A DNA stretch of 36,593 nt, from NCBI RefSeq assembly GCF_947258525.1, contig NZ_CAMYIP010000118.1, positions 1 to 36,593 of the forward strand. Reading direction: 5' to 3'. Numbering within the stretch: position 1 is the first letter of the stretch; each line of letters opens with the position of its first letter. The notes beneath the pieces are model-generated. The model was not told the DNA's origin. It made no database searches and saw nothing but the letters and a program-made list of their open reading frames with translations. Of the stretch, positions 8,015 through 34,976 are shown piece by piece. A program made the position numbers and the translations under genes. The DNA is from an uncultured Eudoraea sp. GTDB lineage: Bacteria; Bacteroidota; Bacteroidia; Flavobacteriales; Flavobacteriaceae.

Positions 8015-8120
8015 TTTTAATAAACAAGTTACACATATTTGCCTGCTTGCAGGCTTAGCAGGCCAAGCATGGAATTTATGGTCTTAGTTTTATGAATATC
8101 ATTCTTAGTTCTCACCTATT

Positions 8121-8280
8121 GTCAGGTCGAGCGGAGTCGAGACCTACCCACCCCTTTTATTCCGCTCCAAGGAGGGGAAAGATTTTAGTACTTGATGAAA
8201 ATTCAGCATAGTTTACTTTTTGTCAGGTCGAGCGGAGTCGAGACCTATTCAACGCGCTTATATCTCGACTCCGCTCGATA
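8121..8280. repeat. Composite palindromic repeat element 1
   Basis: Two direct copies of a 25-nt repeat (core TCGAGCGGAGTCGAGACCT) lie at 8121-8145 and 8222-8246. An inverted partial copy is at 8264-8284. Between the first two is a second repeat type holding a CTCC/GGAG hairpin and the run AAGATTTTAGTACTTGAT. The same order recurs at 10647-10895 and 17638-17835. It sits between the small membrane protein gene and the tail of a lost Dabb gene. Confidence 0.75.
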
Positions 8281-8314
8281 TGACGCGCGATATGTCTTAT
8301 TTATCTACAAGAGC

Positions 8315-10613: not shown

Positions 10614-10646
10614 AATATATATTTCAAGTTACTATAGTTCTCTAAT

Positions 10647-10895
10647 GTCAGGTGGAGTGTTTATGCCGAGCTGGTACCTCGAACCTAGTCGAGACCCACC
10701 CCTTTTATTCCGCTTCGTCGCTAAAGCTATGAAGCGTCGGCGACCCTGCCAGGAGGGGAGAATTTGTGGTGAGGGTAAAATCCGCTCCCAGTAGGGCAAG
10801 TCTATACGTAAATGAAAACAGAATTTAATCATAATTTATCCATTGTCAGGTCGAGCGTTCACTCCCAGCTGTCAGGTCGAGCGGAGTCGAGACCT
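10647..10895. repeat. Composite palindromic repeat element 2
   Basis: It starts with a long variant of the 25-nt repeat (10647-10696) containing GCCGAGCTGGTACCTCGA, which reappears inverted at 34763-34819. Then comes the second repeat type (CTTCGTCGCTA.. and ..GGAGGGGAGAA, about 10697-10770), then a stretch with a MIKF-like start at 10832, and finally a truncated plus a full 25-nt repeat (10845-10895). No gene is supported here. Confidence 0.7.
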
Positions 10896-10906: not shown

Positions 10907-11344
10907 CTACTCCACCCAATAATCCACCACAGTCACATCTTCCACAAAAGGGCCAACCAGACTTACAAATTCCTGGTGGGCAGGGTGGGGCAGATAGATG
11001 GCCCTGTCTTCTTCAGATAAAAATGTCACAAAAAAACAATGGCTAAGCCCCTTATCTAAACCTTCCGGGCTGTTGTTGGTGCCCCATTCAAAATCGTGTA
11101 TTTCAGGGATCCGTTCCGGCAAACCGGCAAATGCCTGTTCGATCTCTTTGATGTTATCATCTGTAGCTGTGTCAACAAAATTAAACAGCACAACATGCCG
11201 CAATAGTTTGACGGGTTCTTTCATTTCTTTTTTTGCGCCCTCTTGCTTCATTTCAGCGGTTTTCTTTTCCTCCTGCATGCAGGATCCTAAAATTAAGAAG
11301 AAGGATAATAGTACTAGGTAAATTTGTTTCATGAGTGTGGTCAT
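10907..11344 (-). CDS. Dabb-domain (stress-responsive alpha/beta barrel) lipoprotein
   Basis: A 145-residue protein with a lipoprotein signal (LVLLSFFLILGSC, then MQEEKK), a charged linker, and a Dabb domain. Recognisable parts are LLRHVVLFNFVDTATDD at the domain start, FEWGTNNSPEGLDKG in the middle and HQEFVSLVGPFVEDVTVVDYWVE at the end. Dabb proteins form dimeric ferredoxin-like barrels; the ligand is unknown. The start at 11344 shares its A with the TAA of the DUF6090 gene upstream (TAATG), so the two are translationally coupled; an inner Met four codons later is also possible. The end of this gene is duplicated as a remnant at 8315-8378. Confidence 0.87.
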   Translation of the reverse strand: MTTLMKQIYLVLLSFFLILGSCMQEEKKTAEMKQEGAKKEMKEPVKLLRHVVLFNFVDTATDDNIKEIEQAFAGLPERIPEIHDFEWGTNNSPEGLDKGLSHCFFVTFLSEEDRAIYLPHPAHQEFVSLVGPFVEDVTVVDYWVE

Positions 11345-12144
11345 TAGTTTTCCAGTTCCCGCTCAATTATATCGAGCACTGTATTGGAATATTCTATAAA
11401 ACCTTGTGCCTGGATGTTCGATACAGAAAGCCAATTTATGGTAGAACTGATCTTCCCTTCAAATTCCGTAGAGGTAAACAAGGCGCTGGAATCAAAATCT
11501 AATTTTGATTTCCCGATCTCAAACCTGTTTTCCCCACCCTTTTGCAGCAAGATATCGTCCAGGGCGCCGGAACTCCCGGTTTTAACCATAATGTTCCTGA
11601 ACGAGTAATATTGATATAAGGGCGGGCGCAAATGGTTGATATTAAATTCCAAATAGATCATTTCTTCTTCTTTGGCCTGTGTTACAAGACTGGACCAATT
11701 GGAGAGATGGAGTCTTAGTGAATCATTGGATATCAAGGCGAGTTTACCACCATCCATCAATTGTGTAATGATCCCATTGATGGGGTCAAAAGTAAAATTA
11801 GGGAGCATGGTGGCAAAGAGACTGTCGATCTTCCCGTAATCCTTTTCTAGTTCGGGATTGTCAATGATTTTCAAGATCTCATGGCAAGAATTTGCAGCAT
11901 CTTCTCTTTTAGCAATCTTGGTAAGTAACTGGTCCTTGTTTTGAAGGAATTCCGTGCGTAATTGTTTTAGCAATAGTTGTTCTTCCTTCGATTCCAAACG
12001 TTGCGTATTCCAATTGTCGACCTGCAACGCCAAAAGGATCCCGATCATGACAAGGAGGATCTCCCCAATGGCGTATTTAAAGTATTTACCAGTTTTTCCT
12101 GTCTCCATAAGGTCTTTTCTAATTTGTCTAAAAAATTTGATCAT
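11344..12144 (-). CDS. DUF6090 family membrane protein (paralogue 1)
   Basis: A 266-residue member of a Bacteroidota family of unknown function. It has an amphipathic basic start (MIKFFRQIRKDL), then GKTGKYFKYAIGEI, then one membrane helix (LLVMIGILLALQV) ending in DNWN, a coiled-coil-prone stretch, and a helical C-terminal region. The motif ISNDSLRLHLSNW recurs in the relatives as a polar-Leu-Arg pattern. The N-terminal 45 residues are shared with five other genes in the window, while the rest diverges. It is coupled by TAATG overlaps to both neighbours (paralogue 2 upstream, Dabb lipoprotein downstream). Family assignment is from memory of the N-terminal signature. Confidence 0.87.
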   Translation of the reverse strand: MIKFFRQIRKDLMETGKTGKYFKYAIGEILLVMIGILLALQVDNWNTQRLESKEEQLLLKQLRTEFLQNKDQLLTKIAKREDAANSCHEILKIIDNPELEKDYGKIDSLFATMLPNFTFDPINGIITQLMDGGKLALISNDSLRLHLSNWSSLVTQAKEEEMIYLEFNINHLRPPLYQYYSFRNIMVKTGSSGALDDILLQKGGENRFEIGKSKLDFDSSALFTSTEFEGKISSTINWLSVSNIQAQGFIEYSNTVLDIIERELEN

Positions 12145-12935
12145 TACTTATCCAGACTTTCGTTTATCTGGTCCAGAATTAGATCAATATGTGTCCGTAA
12201 CGGAACGGATTGAGCATTGGCAATATTCGAGAATAGTGCTATAAAGCTTATGTAATCTTCCAGGTCTTCAACCTGAAGTATTCTATTGACATTTTCCTGC
12301 ATGTTAGTTCTTCCGATAAAGGCATCCAGGCGATCGCTGCCTTGCGGATAGATCAGATCCTGGATGCCCAGATCCTGTTCCACCTGCTGAAACAGATCTC
12401 GTATTTGAATATGTTTATTCAAAAATGGCATGTAAAAGTTGTCTCTATGGTTTAACAAGACCACTTCTTCTTCAACAAGTTCATCCACTCTTGTCGGCCA
12501 TTTTGAAAGGAGGTTTTTTAGCGAATCGTTCTGAATTAAATTAATATCCTTGGAGGCAAAGAAGCTTTCTGAGTTAGCATTGAATGTCGGCGTATAAAGG
12601 GTTCGCTGTAAATGGAAGATCAAGCTATCATTCTCAATTTCCAATTTTTCATCCAGGGTATTTAAGATGACTTTGCAGGAGGAAATGATCCTATTTCTAA
12701 TGGCGATCTTATCATTGAGCTGTCTGAGGTCGTCCTCAAACTCTTGTTTTAACTGGCCAAGAAGTACTTGCTCCTTGTCTTTTGTTTTTTGACCCTCATT
12801 CCAATTATTGATAGAAAGCGCGATCAGAATCCCGATGACCACCAGAAAGATCTCCCCGATGGCGTATTTCAAGTAGTTTGCCGTTTTACCTTCACTCATA
12901 AGCTTGTATCGTATTTGGCGAAAGATTTTAATCAT
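12144..12935 (-). CDS. DUF6090 family membrane protein (paralogue 2)
   Basis: 263 residues. It starts MIKIFRQIRYKLMSEGKTANYL, then the family helix region YAIGEIFLVVIGILIAL ending SINNWNEG. A charged helical stretch follows (EQVLLGQLKQEFEDDLRQL), which aligns with paralogue 1 and with the gene at 18875. The pattern IQNDSLKNLLSKW corresponds to the conserved polar-Leu segment. Its start overlaps the end of the upstream paralogue by 8 nt and its stop overlaps the next start. So three DUF6090 genes plus the Dabb gene form one tightly packed operon. Function unknown. Confidence 0.87.
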   Translation of the reverse strand: MIKIFRQIRYKLMSEGKTANYLKYAIGEIFLVVIGILIALSINNWNEGQKTKDKEQVLLGQLKQEFEDDLRQLNDKIAIRNRIISSCKVILNTLDEKLEIENDSLIFHLQRTLYTPTFNANSESFFASKDINLIQNDSLKNLLSKWPTRVDELVEEEVVLLNHRDNFYMPFLNKHIQIRDLFQQVEQDLGIQDLIYPQGSDRLDAFIGRTNMQENVNRILQVEDLEDYISFIALFSNIANAQSVPLRTHIDLILDQINESLDK

Positions 12936-13620
12936 TTGCTAGTTCCTTATCGATCAGACGTACTACTTCCGTCATATTTTCATTAAGATCAAACAAGTGC
13001 TGATTGTAAAAAAACTTGATTTCTAAGAAATTGAATAGATCCAGAAAGATCTTGTCGTCCGCAGCGCTTTTCAGGTCGGTATAGGTCCAATGTATCCTTT
13101 CAGAGGCATAGGTCCAGTGTATCCTATCCTCGCTAGGCTTCAACGTCTCATAGACGCTGGCCATACGGGCGTGACGTTCATCATAGATTTGCTGGATCAT
13201 GGCGAAGAGCTCGCGGTTTTTTATCAGGCTGGATTTACCGTCTGCAACAAGTGAATTATAGGTAGCCCGAATAGGCCGGAATGAGATTCCCCTGTAAAAG
13301 ATATATTTATAGTGTGTGGTATCAGGTTCAATAAAGAAACCGCTATACCTGTCAGGAGCGTAAATGGCTTCCCGAAATACGGGTGATAGACTATTGAATA
13401 AGCTGATTTCTTTAGAATTTTGGTGAATGATACTATCCAAAAGTACAAAGTCCTTTTTGAGATCATTTTTGATACCTTCTAAATAGACCTTGGCCAATTT
13501 GGCTTCTTTCCTTTCCTCATTCCAATTATTGATAGAAAGCGCGATCAATATCCCAATAACTACCAAGAGGATCTCCCCGATGGCATATTTCAAGTATTTC
13601 CCAGTTTTTCCTGTTTCCAT
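12928..13620 (-). CDS. DUF6090 family membrane protein (paralogue 3), shortened N-terminus
   Basis: 230 residues from METGKTGKYLKYAIGEI. The codons before this Met still read IKFFRHIRKDL in frame, as in the other paralogues, but the expected ATG is replaced by GGG, exactly where the GIY-YIG gene and its repeat end. So the protein lacks the usual first 12 residues unless the following ATT is used as a start. The membrane helix (LLVVIGILIALSI, then NNWNEE) is intact. The C-terminal domain carries a 9-residue tandem duplication with RIHWTY twice, caused by a 27-nt repeat at 13081-13128. It overlaps the next paralogue by 8 nt. Confidence 0.82.
   Translation of the reverse strand: METGKTGKYLKYAIGEILLVVIGILIALSINNWNEERKEAKLAKVYLEGIKNDLKKDFVLLDSIIHQNSKEISLFNSLSPVFREAIYAPDRYSGFFIEPDTTHYKYIFYRGISFRPIRATYNSLVADGKSSLIKNRELFAMIQQIYDERHARMASVYETLKPSEDRIHWTYASERIHWTYTDLKSAADDKIFLDLFNFLEIKFFYNQHLFDLNENMTEVVRLIDKELAND
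13081..13128. repeat. 27-nt tandem duplication inside DUF6090 paralogue 3
   Basis: ATAGGTCCARTGTATCCT occurs twice with a period of 27 nt, which keeps the frame and gives the repeated RIHWTY in the protein. The two copies differ at a few bases, so it is not very recent. Confidence 0.7.
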
Positions 13621-13648
13621 TAAATCTTTTCTAATGTGTCTAAAAAAT

Positions 13649-14011
13649 TTAATCCCTTGCTCTTGTTATGTCTGGTCGAGCGGAGTCGAGACCTACTACC
13701 TGCGTCCTATTCTTAGCATGCGTCTCATTTCTGCACTGTGCTAATAGTTTTAATAGATCGTAATCTCCGTTTGCCAGGGCCAGCTTCTTTTTACTACTCC
13801 AATTTTTTATTCTTTTTTCGAAATATATCGCTTGATCAACATCATTAAATTCTTGATGAAACACCAATCGGACGGGTCTTCTTTTAAATGTAAAACAAGA
13901 CTTGTTCATACCTCTTTGGTGCTCTTCGAATCGCCTCGAAATATTGTTTGTCATTCCTGTATATGTCAAGCCATCTGAACATTGAAGTATGTAAACATAA
14001 TAGAGCTTCAT
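13649..14011 (-). CDS. GIY-YIG (URI) family nuclease framed by palindromic repeats
   Basis: Small single-domain GIY-YIG endonuclease, 120 residues from MKLYYVYILQCSDG. The first motif strand is YVY, the second TYTGMT; the catalytic Arg lies in ISRRFEEH and the metal-binding Glu in AIYFEKRIKNW. I chose the inner Met at 14011, because the longer frame from 14068 begins with codons made of the upstream palindromic repeat (CQVERSRD). The last residues, from about VVGLDSARPD, are encoded by another copy of the repeat in opposite orientation (13670-13694). The gene is thus bracketed by inverted repeats and its stop touches the damaged start of the DUF6090 paralogue downstream. It may help spread or maintain the repeats; that is inference. 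Confidence 0.88.
   Translation of the reverse strand: MKLYYVYILQCSDGLTYTGMTNNISRRFEEHQRGMNKSCFTFKRRPVRLVFHQEFNDVDQAIYFEKRIKNWSSKKKLALANGDYDLLKLLAQCRNETHAKNRTQVVGLDSARPDITRARD
13670..13694. repeat. 25-nt palindromic repeat inside the 3' end of the GIY-YIG gene
   Basis: One mismatch from the common form (GTCTGG instead of GTCAGG, then TCGAGCGGAGTCGAGACCT). It is in the opposite orientation to the two copies at 14031-14101, on the other side of the nuclease gene. Confidence 0.85.
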
Positions 14012-14030
14012 TGGCACCTTATTATTAAAG

Positions 14031-14101
14031 AGGTCTCGACTCCGCTCGACCTGACAGCTTTTTATCAACTAGTATTAGGTCTCGACTCCGCTCGACCTGA
14101 C
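14031..14101. repeat. Two palindromic repeats upstream of the GIY-YIG gene
   Basis: Two identical 25-nt copies, AGGTCTCGACTCCGCTCGA followed by CCTGAC, at 14031-14055 and 14077-14101, 21 nt apart. They are inverted relative to 13670-13694. The second is followed by the 58-nt block that begins with a MFKF-type start (14102-14159). Confidence 0.85.
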
Positions 14102-14159
14102 AATTTAATATTATTGACACTAATAAGCCTGCATTGTATTACTTTAAAAACTTGAACAT
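14102..14159 (-). pseudogene. DUF6090-start-like block attached to a palindromic repeat (copy 1)
   Basis: On the minus strand it starts ATGTTCAAGTTTTTAAAG then TAA, encoding only MFKFLK. The 58 nt from this ATG to the repeat match 15045-15102 at 54 positions, and 34820-34878 more loosely. It lies 9 nt after the stop of DUF6090 paralogue 4. It is probably the stump of a DUF6090 gene, copied together with the repeat. Confidence 0.5.
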
Positions 14160-14168
14160 CAGGTTGTG

Positions 14169-14915
14169 CTATTCATTATTTAAATTGCTCCTTATCTGTT
14201 GTTTTAAGGCGATGGTTTTTTTCAAGGCATCTTTCTTTAAGGCGGCACCTTGATACCTGAAACCACCCCTGTGCTTTATAATGTTATGGTATTCCGAATC
14301 ATTTAAAAGCGCATCGTAATCCACCGGTTTTGAATTCAGGCGGTCATTATACGGACTACCTTCCATATCATTGATCCGAAAATGCTTGTGGTAAATGGGT
14401 AGGAGAGAGCTGGGCCAGAATTGATCTTCCAGTCGTACCGTTTGGGAGATAAGAAAGCCATAGTCATTGTCGAACAATGTGATAATAGCGTTCCGTAAAC
14501 TATCCGAGGTTATGATGTCGAATCCCTTGCTTTGAATGGAATGAAATGCTGTAGCAGAGAGGATAATATCCGGTGAGTACTGAGCACGGCCAAAATGATA
14601 ATCCATGCTGTCATGATAGGGTAACCTGTTGTTCAGGATGGTAAGCACATGTTTTATGGAATTAATTGACTTGTATTCTTCAGCAATGTCCGACTCTAAA
14701 TTCTTCTCATTAAACTCCAGATTTTCAAATAATTCTACAAGCAATCTTTTTTCGATTTTACGCTCAATACGATCCTGATTCCAGTTGTTAATCGAAAGCG
14801 CAATTAGAATACCTATGACTACCAGGAGGATCTCTCCAATGGCATATCGCATATATTGCATCGGTTTGTTATCATCTGCCATTTTCCTGCGTATTTTTCT
14901 AAAAAACGGGATCAT
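14169..14915 (-). CDS. DUF6090 family membrane protein (paralogue 4)
   Basis: 248 residues. It starts MIPFFRKIRRKMADDNKPMQ, slightly divergent from the others, then the family helix region YAIGEILLVVIGILIAL and SINNWNQD. The C-terminal domain shares with paralogue 5 the pattern YHDS..YHF and the later GxDIITSDSLRNAI, so these two form a subgroup. The DNA around its start and end is occupied by palindromic repeats, so it is no longer joined to neighbouring paralogues, unlike genes 1-3. Function unknown. Confidence 0.86.
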   Translation of the reverse strand: MIPFFRKIRRKMADDNKPMQYMRYAIGEILLVVIGILIALSINNWNQDRIERKIEKRLLVELFENLEFNEKNLESDIAEEYKSINSIKHVLTILNNRLPYHDSMDYHFGRAQYSPDIILSATAFHSIQSKGFDIITSDSLRNAIITLFDNDYGFLISQTVRLEDQFWPSSLLPIYHKHFRINDMEGSPYNDRLNSKPVDYDALLNDSEYHNIIKHRGGFRYQGAALKKDALKKTIALKQQIRSNLNNE

Positions 14916-14929
14916 ATGTTTTCACTTTT

Positions 14930-15044
14930 ATCCTCCAAGGAGGGGAAGGATTTCGTAATTGACGAAAGAATTTGATCATTTCTTGACACTATTGATAGGT
15001 CTCGACTCCGCCTCGACAGGCTCGGCATAAACGCTCGACCTGAC
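14930..15044. repeat. Palindromic repeat cluster between DUF6090 paralogues 4 and 5
   Basis: It contains a type-2 repeat with the CCTCC/GGAGG hairpin (about 14933-14960), a MIKFF start stump (14955-14979), and a long variant of the 25-nt repeat (14997-15044) that includes AGGCTCGGCATAAACG. The long variant resembles those at 10647 and 34763. Confidence 0.7.
14955..14979 (-). pseudogene. MIKFFRQLR start stump of a DUF6090 gene
   Basis: The minus strand reads ATGATCAAATTCTTTCGT and then changes into the type-2 palindromic repeat (TTACGAAATCCTTCCCC). MIKFFRQ is the exact DUF6090 start. No family sequence follows, so only the 5' end of a gene remains. Confidence 0.55.
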
Positions 15045-15102
15045 AATCTAATATTATTGACACTAATATGCCTGCATTGTATTAATTTAAAAACTTGATC
15101 AT
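15045..15102 (-). pseudogene. DUF6090-start-like block attached to a palindromic repeat (copy 2)
   Basis: The ATG of this block overlaps the TGA stop of paralogue 5 (ATGA), just as intact DUF6090 genes overlap their neighbours. It reads MIKFLN then stop. It is 54/58 identical to the block at 14102-14159 and runs directly into a palindromic repeat. The overlap suggests that a coupled DUF6090 gene once followed. Confidence 0.55.
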
Positions 15103-15821
15103 GAGTCTTGCAGTTCTGTTTCAATAGCCTTGATCACGCTTTCTATTTCGGCAACTAATTCATCGAAGAAATCCAAATTATAGGTAGAAGCGTTCCTGAT
15201 CCACTGCAAGTGGTTCATAAATTCATCATCTTCTAAAAGGGATTCATAATCATTGGGGATAGCGATAGACTTCCATTGGACGGGCTCTATCCGTTTAAGA
15301 TACATAGGATATGTGAAATTGATATGATCTTCCCTGAAAAAGCCACCAATGTCTTTGCCATAGGAATAACTCTGGTTGTAAAGTTTAAGGATACTGTTTC
15401 TTAATTCAGAGCTAGAAATGATGTCGACCCCCCTTGCATTAAGATTCGATATGGCCCCGTTGTTTATATTAAAATGTTCATAATCATTCCAAATAGCAAA
15501 ATGATAGCTCAGGGAATCGTGGTACGACTTCTTATTTTTTAAATGACTAATCAGGATCGTACACGAATTTCGCACCCCCTGGTAGATCCCAATTGTATTT
15601 TTAATGCCCTGAATATCCAAGGTTAATTCGGTTGAAAACTGTTGCAGAAGTTCTCTTTCAATAACTTTTGCTTTTTTTCCTTCATTCCAGGTATTGATCT
15701 GTAAGGCGATCAATATTCCAATAACGACTAAAAGGATCTCGCCAATCGCGTATTTCAAGTACTTTCCAGTTTTTCCTGTTTCCATTAGGTCTTTTCTAAT
15801 GTGTCTAAAAAATTTGATCAT
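15099..15821 (-). CDS. DUF6090 family membrane protein (paralogue 5)
   Basis: 240 residues from MIKFFRHIRKDLMETGKTG; an in-frame Met at 15848 would add nine residues derived from a palindromic element, so I reject it. The family helix is LLVVIGILIALQI, ending NTWNEG. At the nucleotide level its first 100 or so bases are nearly the same as paralogue 3, while the C-terminal part instead resembles paralogue 4. This mosaic look suggests recombination within the 5' region. The start lies directly next to the cloverleaf-like repeat at 15838-15927. Function unknown. Confidence 0.86.
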   Translation of the reverse strand: MIKFFRHIRKDLMETGKTGKYLKYAIGEILLVVIGILIALQINTWNEGKKAKVIERELLQQFSTELTLDIQGIKNTIGIYQGVRNSCTILISHLKNKKSYHDSLSYHFAIWNDYEHFNINNGAISNLNARGVDIISSSELRNSILKLYNQSYSYGKDIGGFFREDHINFTYPMYLKRIEPVQWKSIAIPNDYESLLEDDEFMNHLQWIRNASTYNLDFFDELVAEIESVIKAIETELQDS

Positions 15822-15837
15822 GATTTTTGATTTGCAC

Positions 15838-15927
15838 TTCGAGTGCACTGAACTTGTTTCAGTGTGTATCGAGAAGTGACTGAATTAAGGCATTTCTCGA
15901 TACGTCCACCGAAGGTGGACACTCGAA
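15838..15927. repeat. Cloverleaf-like palindromic element (third repeat type)
   Basis: The outer arms TTCGAGTG (15838-15845) and CACTCGAA (15920-15927) pair. Inside are a hairpin CACTGAA/TTCAGTG, a stem TATCGAGAA (15867-15875) with TTCTCGATA (15894-15902), and a hairpin GTCCACC/GGTGGAC. The result can fold as a four-way structure on either strand. It is not a tRNA: the arm lengths and loops do not fit. Confidence 0.75.
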
Positions 15928-17637: not shown

Positions 17638-17835
17638 ACCCACCCCTAAATCCGCTTCGTCGCTAACCTACTTCGCCATAGTAGCATGGCTACGAAGGCC
17701 GAAAAGCTATGAAGCGTCGGCGACCCTCCATGGAGGAGAAAGATTTTCGTACTTGATTAAATATATTGGCATAGTTTAGTTATTGTCAGGTTGAGCGTTC
17801 ACATCAAGCTGTCAGGTCGAGCGGAGTCGAGACCT
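17638..17835. repeat. Composite palindromic repeat element 3
   Basis: It holds the type-2 repeat in a longer version (CTTCGTCGCTAACC.., GTAGCATGGCTACGAAGG, GAAGCGTCGGCGACC), then AAGATTTTCGTACTTGATTA, then a truncated 25-nt repeat (17787-17800) and a full one (17811-17835). The order is the same as in elements 1 and 2. The 244-nt gap 17624-17867 holds nothing else that I can see. Confidence 0.75.
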
Positions 17836-34749: not shown

Positions 34750-34878
34750 TTATTGCCAACGCCTCGACACCTCTCGACTAGGCTCGAGGTACCAGCTCGG
34801 CATAAACGCTCGACCTGACAATTTAATTGTAATCGCACTAATACACTTGCATGGTATTTTACTAAAGAACTTTATCAT
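34750..34878 (-). pseudogene. MIKFFSKI stump fused to palindromic repeat (42-codon open frame)
   Basis: The frame from ATG at 34878 begins MIKFFSKIP, like a DUF6090 start, then reads through a 59-nt block related to 14102-14159 and 15045-15102, and through a long variant of the 25-nt repeat. It stays open for 42 codons. It is far from the DUF6090 region (15 kb), which shows that the stump travels with the repeat. It is unlikely to be a functional gene. Confidence 0.5.
34763..34819. repeat. Long variant of the palindromic repeat
   Basis: It contains CTCGACTAGGCTCGAGGTAC and GGCATAAACGCTCGACCTGA. It is the inverse of the variant at 10647-10696 and similar to 14997-15044. It lies directly upstream of the serine hydrolase gene. 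Confidence 0.75.
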
Positions 34879-34976
34879 TGGGTTATTTAATGCAATAAAA
34901 CGTATTCGAGTATGAATTGTCCCAAGTCACAGGGATGAACATATGCACGTTGTTAAACTTGGTTTTTGTAAAGATT

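Follow-up and report, generated by a model that had tools for sequence, protein, structure and literature searches.

The locus

The window examined here, that is the whole 36,593-nucleotide stretch of contig NZ_CAMYIP010000118.1 (uncultured Eudoraea sp., Flavobacteriaceae; assembly GCF_947258525.1), carries an open minus-strand reading frame for a single-domain GIY-YIG nuclease, framed by inverted copies of a short hairpin repeat (Table 1). The encoded protein passes the curated Pfam cut-off for PF01541 (62.0 bits, with the cut-off at 22.6), and this is the only domain that Pfam identifies in it: neither a separate DNA-binding domain nor an HUH Y1 tyrosine transposase domain was detected, and an NCBIfam search gave no match above its cut-off. 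The roles of the GIY-YIG core residues (Y, Y-x-G, R, H and E) are general background, and here Y7, Y17, R27, H31 and E65 are invariant across 22 aligned proteins while G19 is conserved in at least 90% of them. The five invariant residues favour an active enzyme, an inference from conservation only, as nuclease activity remains untested. The structural model has a mean pLDDT of 81.9 (at least 86 in every ten-residue block of residues 1–90), and its nearest solved folds are UPF0213 proteins first and Slx1 second. Slx1 is a structure-selective nuclease, and branched DNA is named in the titles of its structure entries. No match to a known defence gene was found for the two proteins searched, nor to a known RNA family at the gathering threshold, and both identities were rejected. 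The repeat–gene unit sits between two members of a row of DUF6090 genes (three Pfam-tested), which have a conserved 149-nt part in common (family D1) that congeners carry too.

Table 1. Coordinates of the nuclease gene, the hairpin repeats and neighbouring features in the window.
Feature	Position	Strand	Remarks
Same repeat as at nuclease gene	8120..8145	+	
Same repeat as at nuclease gene	8221..8246	+	adjoins inverted copy 8261-8284
Variant repeat copy	8261..8284	-	outer stem altered (GTCATATCGAGCGGAGTCGAGATA)
Long-tip repeat variant	10646..10694	+	head and foot similar, hairpin tip longer
Second repeat, AAAGCTATGAAGCGTCGGCGACCC...	10723..10770		
Partial repeat copy	10844..10869	+	head and 5' arm; immediately before copy at 10870
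Same repeat as at nuclease gene	10870..10895	+	
Row of DUF6090 genes	11344..15848		
Single-domain GIY-YIG nuclease gene, 120 aa	13649..14011	-	ATG at 14011, stop codon ends at 13649; PF01541 match, core residues, model
GTC-headed hairpin repeat, 3' side of nuclease gene	13669..13694	+	head away from gene; within 3' end of the reading frame; one mismatch to consensus
GTC-headed hairpin repeat, 5' side of nuclease gene	14031..14056	-	head outward
Second GTC-headed hairpin repeat, 5' side of nuclease gene	14077..14102	-	head outward
Family D4 stretch, first copy	14089..14162		
Long-tip repeat variant	14997..15045	-	49 nt vs 26 nt in standard copy
Family D4 stretch	15032..15105		93% identity to first copy
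Second repeat, AAAGCTATGAAGCGTCGGCGACCC...	17703..17750		
Partial repeat copy	17784..17809	+	immediately before copy at 17810
Same repeat as at nuclease gene	17810..17835	+	
Long-tip repeat variant	34772..34820	-	
Family D4 stretch	34807..34880		69% identity to first copy

The repeat is 26 nt long and has the form TGTC-AGGTC-gagcggagtcga-GACCT. An earlier, sequence-only reading of the window had placed the nuclease gene between inverted repeat copies, one in its 3' end and two of opposite orientation upstream. This part held: the copies were confirmed, and the gene interval has an inverted-repeat score of 26.0, compared with a best value of 13.5 among 130 control intervals of the same length in the window. 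The single mismatch of the copy in the 3' end is GTCT for GTCA, and this copy encodes ...GLDSARPD in the nuclease frame. The same reading had called the repeat dispersed across the window, which is misleading. A loose pattern finds ten copies in the whole assembly, eight of them in the window and two at the start of another contig, C44 (a reversed control pattern finds none), and a stricter pattern finds nine, with seven in the window; variants add five more to the window, three with longer tips and two partial. Within this draft assembly (3.8 Mb in 249 contigs, such that copies lost at contig breaks escape counting) the repeat is thus a local cluster in its genome and not a dispersed element. 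Two further sequences accompany the cluster. One is a second repeat (AAAGCTATGAAGCGTCGGCGACCC...), present twice in the window and also at the start of C44 (locus L007), alongside the two non-window copies of the hairpin repeat. The other is a sequence of approximately 60 nt that three of the copies in the window have in common directly beyond the head (family D4).

The source assembly contains five GIY-YIG matches. One of these, a second nuclease gene (L001), is accompanied by a different GTC-headed repeat, TGTCAGGCTGAGCGCAGTCGAAGCC, with a single copy at the 3' side of the gene and three in inverted orientation at the 5' side. The sides of the only Y1_Tnp gene of this genome carry a third, GC-rich palindrome that is unlike the nuclease repeats. 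Among nine congeners, distant matches to the window gene were found in two (65–66% identity) and the window repeat in none; as 11 candidates were scored per genome and several genomes are incomplete, absence is not shown.

Flanking repeats in the family and in other phyla

We searched 60 Flavobacteriaceae genomes and sampled 106 small GIY-YIG genes from 40 of them, examining listed matches only; one further gene of the source genome (L002, at a contig end with a tRNA-like flank) was left out. The first scoring set comprised 42 genes (40 family genes in match-rank order, the window gene and L001), to which the rest of the list was added later, as was a contig-end gene (G038:C40). Seven of these first 42 reach an inverted-repeat score of 20, compared with one of 1301 control intervals. 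UvrC-length genes (596–637 aa), which also encode a GIY-YIG domain, score no higher than 13.5 at any of their 20 loci. A motif-free count across the family loci points to both the head and its orientation: GTCA followed by a perfect stem of at least 6 bp occurs 0.541 times per kb facing outward near the genes, 0.319 times facing inward and 0.078 times far from them, whereas none of 12 other heads exceeds a near-outward value of 0.264, reached by CTGA, a head that overlaps the A-type repeat and has a far value of 0.115.

A single clade of the protein tree (support 99/90) takes in 68 of the 106 rows, and repeats could be labelled by loose patterns in 56 of the 68 rows inside it versus two of the 38 outside, although these patterns have no measured background rate. 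A strict criterion of hairpins on both sides is met by 12 of 68 clade genes and two of 38 outgroup genes, a contrast that is not significant (one-sided p 0.06) and is weak because many family repeats have interrupted stems. In the family, the flanking case is carried by the looser, sequence-based tests and not by the strict hairpin criterion.

Genes of other phyla show the arrangement too. A protein-only search gave 80 named loci from what we take, on the basis of locus titles, to be approximately 15 phylum-level groups; 78 could be scored and two were skipped for short flanks. Inverted flanks reach a score of 20 at 49 of the 78 genes versus one of 1233 intervals in the same loci, and a score of 16 at 56 versus five, leaving 22 genes below the lower threshold. 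Outward GTC hairpins stand on both sides at 53 of 80 loci (23 of 1124 control intervals), while seven other three-letter heads yield such hairpins at 0 to 2 of the 80. The usual element has a C/TGTC head, a stem opening with A-T and a CCA tail: among 176 outward elements, T or C precedes GTC in 162, the first stem base is A in 149 and the CCA tail is present in 126. These elements include 45 different perfectly paired 8-bp stems, so pairing has been kept while the sequence varies. Between the end of the upstream repeat and the start codon the median distance is 30 nt, and the downstream repeat follows the stop codon at 13 nt. Nine loci have Bradyrhizobium titles, and seven of them reach a score of 16.

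A second sample, with the criterion fixed beforehand, consisted of 20 genes taken by eye from about every seventh row of a Bacteroidota match list, two of which gave way to an adjacent row (one because of a contig end, one because it had been sampled before). Here seven of 20 genes reach a score of 16 (one of 199 control intervals) and 13 lack a clear inverted pair; hairpins on both sides occur at six of 20 genes and at none of the 199 intervals. The flanking rate is thus lower than in the cross-phylum set. Nor is this sample fully independent, as three of its stretches (L316, L317, L326) overlap earlier ones (L315, L310, L307) and several genomes recur.

Outgroup single-domain GIY-YIG genes have neighbours of other kinds. 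Among 13 loci picked for suspect flanks, ARAGORN places a tRNA gene beside the nuclease gene in ten (L046, L065, L067, L084, L145, L173, L176, L182, L184, L185), and the gene at L046 has partial tRNA-like copies to either side. It is conceivable that these are homing cassettes aimed at tRNA genes. A separate group in the tree comprises L073, L079, L083, L080 and L149; in the first three of these the gene stands, as judged by eye, at the 5' end of an epimerase-like gene (a name we assign from reading), with a copied gene start before the cassette.

Covariation, co-occurrence and possible movement

For pairs of genes from the same subclade and different genera, a flanking segment (score of at least 16, in strictly non-coding flanks) is shared in 97 of 136, and 86 of these 97 segments include the GTC tag; sharing drops to 5.4% among 2052 pairs drawn from different subclades and to 1.7% among 4392 far controls. 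The test left out eight pairs with long homology. When labels are shuffled within genomes the mean falls to 0.221, and none of 5000 shuffles reaches the observed 0.713. Sharing is uneven among subclades (E, 31/35; D, 26/35; B, to which the window gene belongs, 10/15; C, 4/14). Because the subclades had been drawn with the repeat labels visible on the tree, the test was repeated on protein identity alone. In this label-free form the correlation is 0.454 versus 0.117 (sd 0.039) in shuffles, none of 500 of which reaches the observed value, and flanks are shared in none of 73 pairs below 30% protein identity and in 18 of the 25 pairs whose identity exceeds 70%; far controls range from 1 to 8%. The type of repeat hence follows the protein between genera, even for genes of one genome.

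The repeats also tend to occur where the gene does. In 296 Bacteroidota genomes, five or more C-type repeats are present in 33 of 120 genomes positive for a C-type gene (threshold E 1e-22) versus four of 176 gene-negative ones (Fisher 8e-11), and copy numbers in some genomes run from the tens into the hundreds. When genes are called more strictly (E 1e-30) the association weakens to 22 of 73 versus 15 of 223. No more than 17 candidates were scored per genome, such that some gene-negatives may be misses, and copy counts in the co-occurrence tests include the copies at the gene itself. Kinship is not fully controlled in the Bacteroidota statistic: when genomes are split by kinship, any C-type copy is found in gene-positive versus gene-negative genomes at 19/29 versus 0/6 in one large family, 1/11 versus 2/53 in another and 29/80 versus 14/117 in the rest. 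In the 60 Flavobacteriaceae genomes, the comparison of gene-positive genomes with the others gives 6/6 versus 19/54 for B-type, 7/8 versus 18/52 for E-type and 8/8 versus 18/52 for D-type repeats. Repeats without a detected gene are thus common (for the C type, 16 of the 176 gene-negative Bacteroidota genomes), and matches left unlisted may explain some of them.

The sequence-only reading had suggested that the nuclease could be the counterpart that spreads or edits these repeats, and would have been undermined had GIY-YIG genes of other genomes shown no association with such repeats, or had the repeats been equally common without the gene. Neither is the case: flanking is seen in the family, the cross-phylum set and the second sample, the cognate repeats that flank the genes co-vary with them, and 1143 of 1218 C-type copies in the 296 genomes lie in gene-positive ones. 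Association and covariation support the proposal, with the limit that repeats without a detected gene do exist; cutting, spreading and editing are only inferred.

Presence and absence of a whole unit can be seen in one case. In genome G002, a 349-bp repeat–gene–repeat unit lies between two conserved genes, which we take from reading the sequence to be hemB and hemL, and all five congeners lack the unit, with the neighbours 20 to 106 bases apart (by alignment edges). These empty sites are too diverged to define exact insertion ends or a target duplication, and an unoccupied site has been demonstrated for this unit only and not for the window gene. Arrays of repeats surround nuclease genes in three further genomes (G156, G278, G013), and in the first of these the downstream end of a duplicated stretch lies, by eye, no more than 3 nt from a repeat head. 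The arrays come from 12 stretches chosen partly for their duplicated look and are illustrative examples rather than counts. In G013, E-type repeats form regular arrays on four contigs (C15, C18, C19, C23), some in alternating orientation, and the tips of these copies are variable but largely self-complementary.

A probable cognate nuclease for GTC-headed repeats

Flanking, outward preference, covariation and co-occurrence together make the association of these GIY-YIG nucleases with the repeats firm. They also read most simply if the nuclease acts on the repeats, an activity that is untested. We consider it likely that GTC-headed REPs have their cognate enzymes in these nucleases, and that repeat–gene–repeat blocks are gained whole, seed local arrays and probably spread by cut and repair; both cleavage and mobilization are inferred. 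On this view the window gene is one of a large clade of single-domain GIY-YIG nucleases paired with subclade-specific families of GTC-headed hairpin repeats, and the unit consists of a repeat, the nuclease gene and a second repeat, both heads facing outward. By analogy with its fold relative Slx1 on branched DNA, the nuclease may recognize an extruded or single-stranded hairpin beside the GTC head and would cut at the hairpin next to it, although there are no binding or cleavage data. GIY-YIG enzymes hydrolyse DNA and are not known to rejoin ends; copying would therefore need host repair from another repeat or from another repeat–gene–repeat copy. Spread would then be homing-like cut and repair rather than transposition, and could propagate single repeats, build local clusters such as that in the window and carry the gene along with its ends. 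More speculatively, the close upstream repeat might serve the nuclease as a binding site in its own leader.

The main rival, which remains possible, is that the nuclease is a homing passenger, a selfish gene that lands and cuts in pre-existing repeats multiplied by other means. GIY-YIG enzymes include known homing enzymes, and homing is plausible for the wider group because outgroup genes stand at tRNA genes (the ten of 13 loci above) and others at the copied start of the epimerase-like gene; repeats also exist without the gene. Against this, genomes with the gene carry more repeat copies, arrays surround some nuclease genes, and repeat and protein sequence vary together even among the genes of a single genome. 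It is less plausible, and in our view unlikely, that the repeats are control elements, regulatory or terminator hairpins bound by the nuclease and spread by chance recombination. The short distances between repeats and gene in the cross-phylum set fit such a role, but C-type repeats can number from tens to hundreds in a genome, GTC-headed repeats form arrays, and a conserved GTC head is not known as a feature of terminators. Least plausible are shared hot spots, permissive intergenic regions in which repeats and small mobile genes accumulate without a functional link: both are indeed intergenic and both come and go, but the outward preference, the dependence on the GTC head, the near-zero control intervals in the same loci and the covariation within genomes all speak against it, and RAYT-like genes of the same family have other inverted repeats at their flanks, or none.

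A RAYT as driver of the repeats was considered and rejected. Y1_Tnp genes occur in 28 of the 60 family genomes, giving 30 loci (including L006, with L120 unscorable for its short flank); ten of 29 scorable loci have inverted flanks (score of at least 16), none of which was judged on reading to be a GTC-headed REP. A crude text match flagged two loci (L124, L128) as GTC-type, and reading of the segments supported neither.

The preferred reading, of nucleases cognate to the repeats, invites comparison with several known systems. RAYT proteins and their GTAG REPs (REPtrons) share with the units described here a small gene bracketed by inverted short hairpin repeats, whose head is conserved and unpaired and whose families are specific to the protein. 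They differ in that a RAYT is an HUH tyrosine transposase acting with a GTAG head, whereas here we find a GIY-YIG nuclease and a GTC head; the layout thus works like a REPtron but, with enzyme class and head both different, is not one. CGTC-tagged REPs are apparently without a dedicated transposase, no associated transposase gene having been reported (Di Nocera et al., 2013, PMC3733652). Our cross-phylum elements mostly match them in head (C/TGTC), in the A-T pair that opens the stem and in the CCA tail, and Bradyrhizobium is among the organisms in both; the difference is that a partner GIY-YIG gene is found here. The window repeat is a looser fit. The three copies at the gene all have the unpaired C/TGTC head, in the form TGTC, and two of them an A-T first pair, but uninterrupted pairing is only 5 bp (AGGTC/GACCT), as opposed to an 8–9 bp stem from A-T, and in place of a CCA tail ACT, CTT and AAT follow the stem. 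We therefore describe it as CGTC-REP-like without assigning it to that group.

The clade nucleases have fold and sequence similarity to Slx1, UvrC and UPF0213. Slx1 acts together with Slx4. UvrC is a longer protein with a role in repair, and the 20 loci of UvrC-length genes were without flanking repeats. Free-standing GIY-YIG homing endonucleases have in common with the window protein the catalytic domain and a compact gene unit that is gained or lost, and differ from it in that the window protein has no separate DNA-binding domain in Pfam and seems to target a family of repeats instead of a single gene. We found no paper linking GIY-YIG genes with REPs in the open-access literature searched, and prior work may exist elsewhere.

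A bolder reading extends this to many phyla: GTC-headed REPs would be mobilized by GIY-YIG nucleases of about 100 residues via cut and repair, a second kind of REP mobilization chemically distinct from that of RAYTs, with many coevolving nuclease–hairpin pairs and with the enzyme for CGTC REPs among them. This could as readily prove wrong as right. REP repeats are common in bacterial chromosomes, and an enzyme is known for the GTAG kind and apparently lacking for the CGTC kind (PMC3733652); a partner gene that is flanked by, co-varies with and co-occurs with the repeats brings the question of the CGTC-REP enzyme within reach of tests on short oligonucleotides with a protein of about 100 residues. 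Small GIY-YIG genes are often annotated as UvrC-like (PMC1839093), and, if our interpretation is true, a common and unexplained group of them would gain a role, and two unrelated enzyme classes would have come to serve the same kind of repeat.
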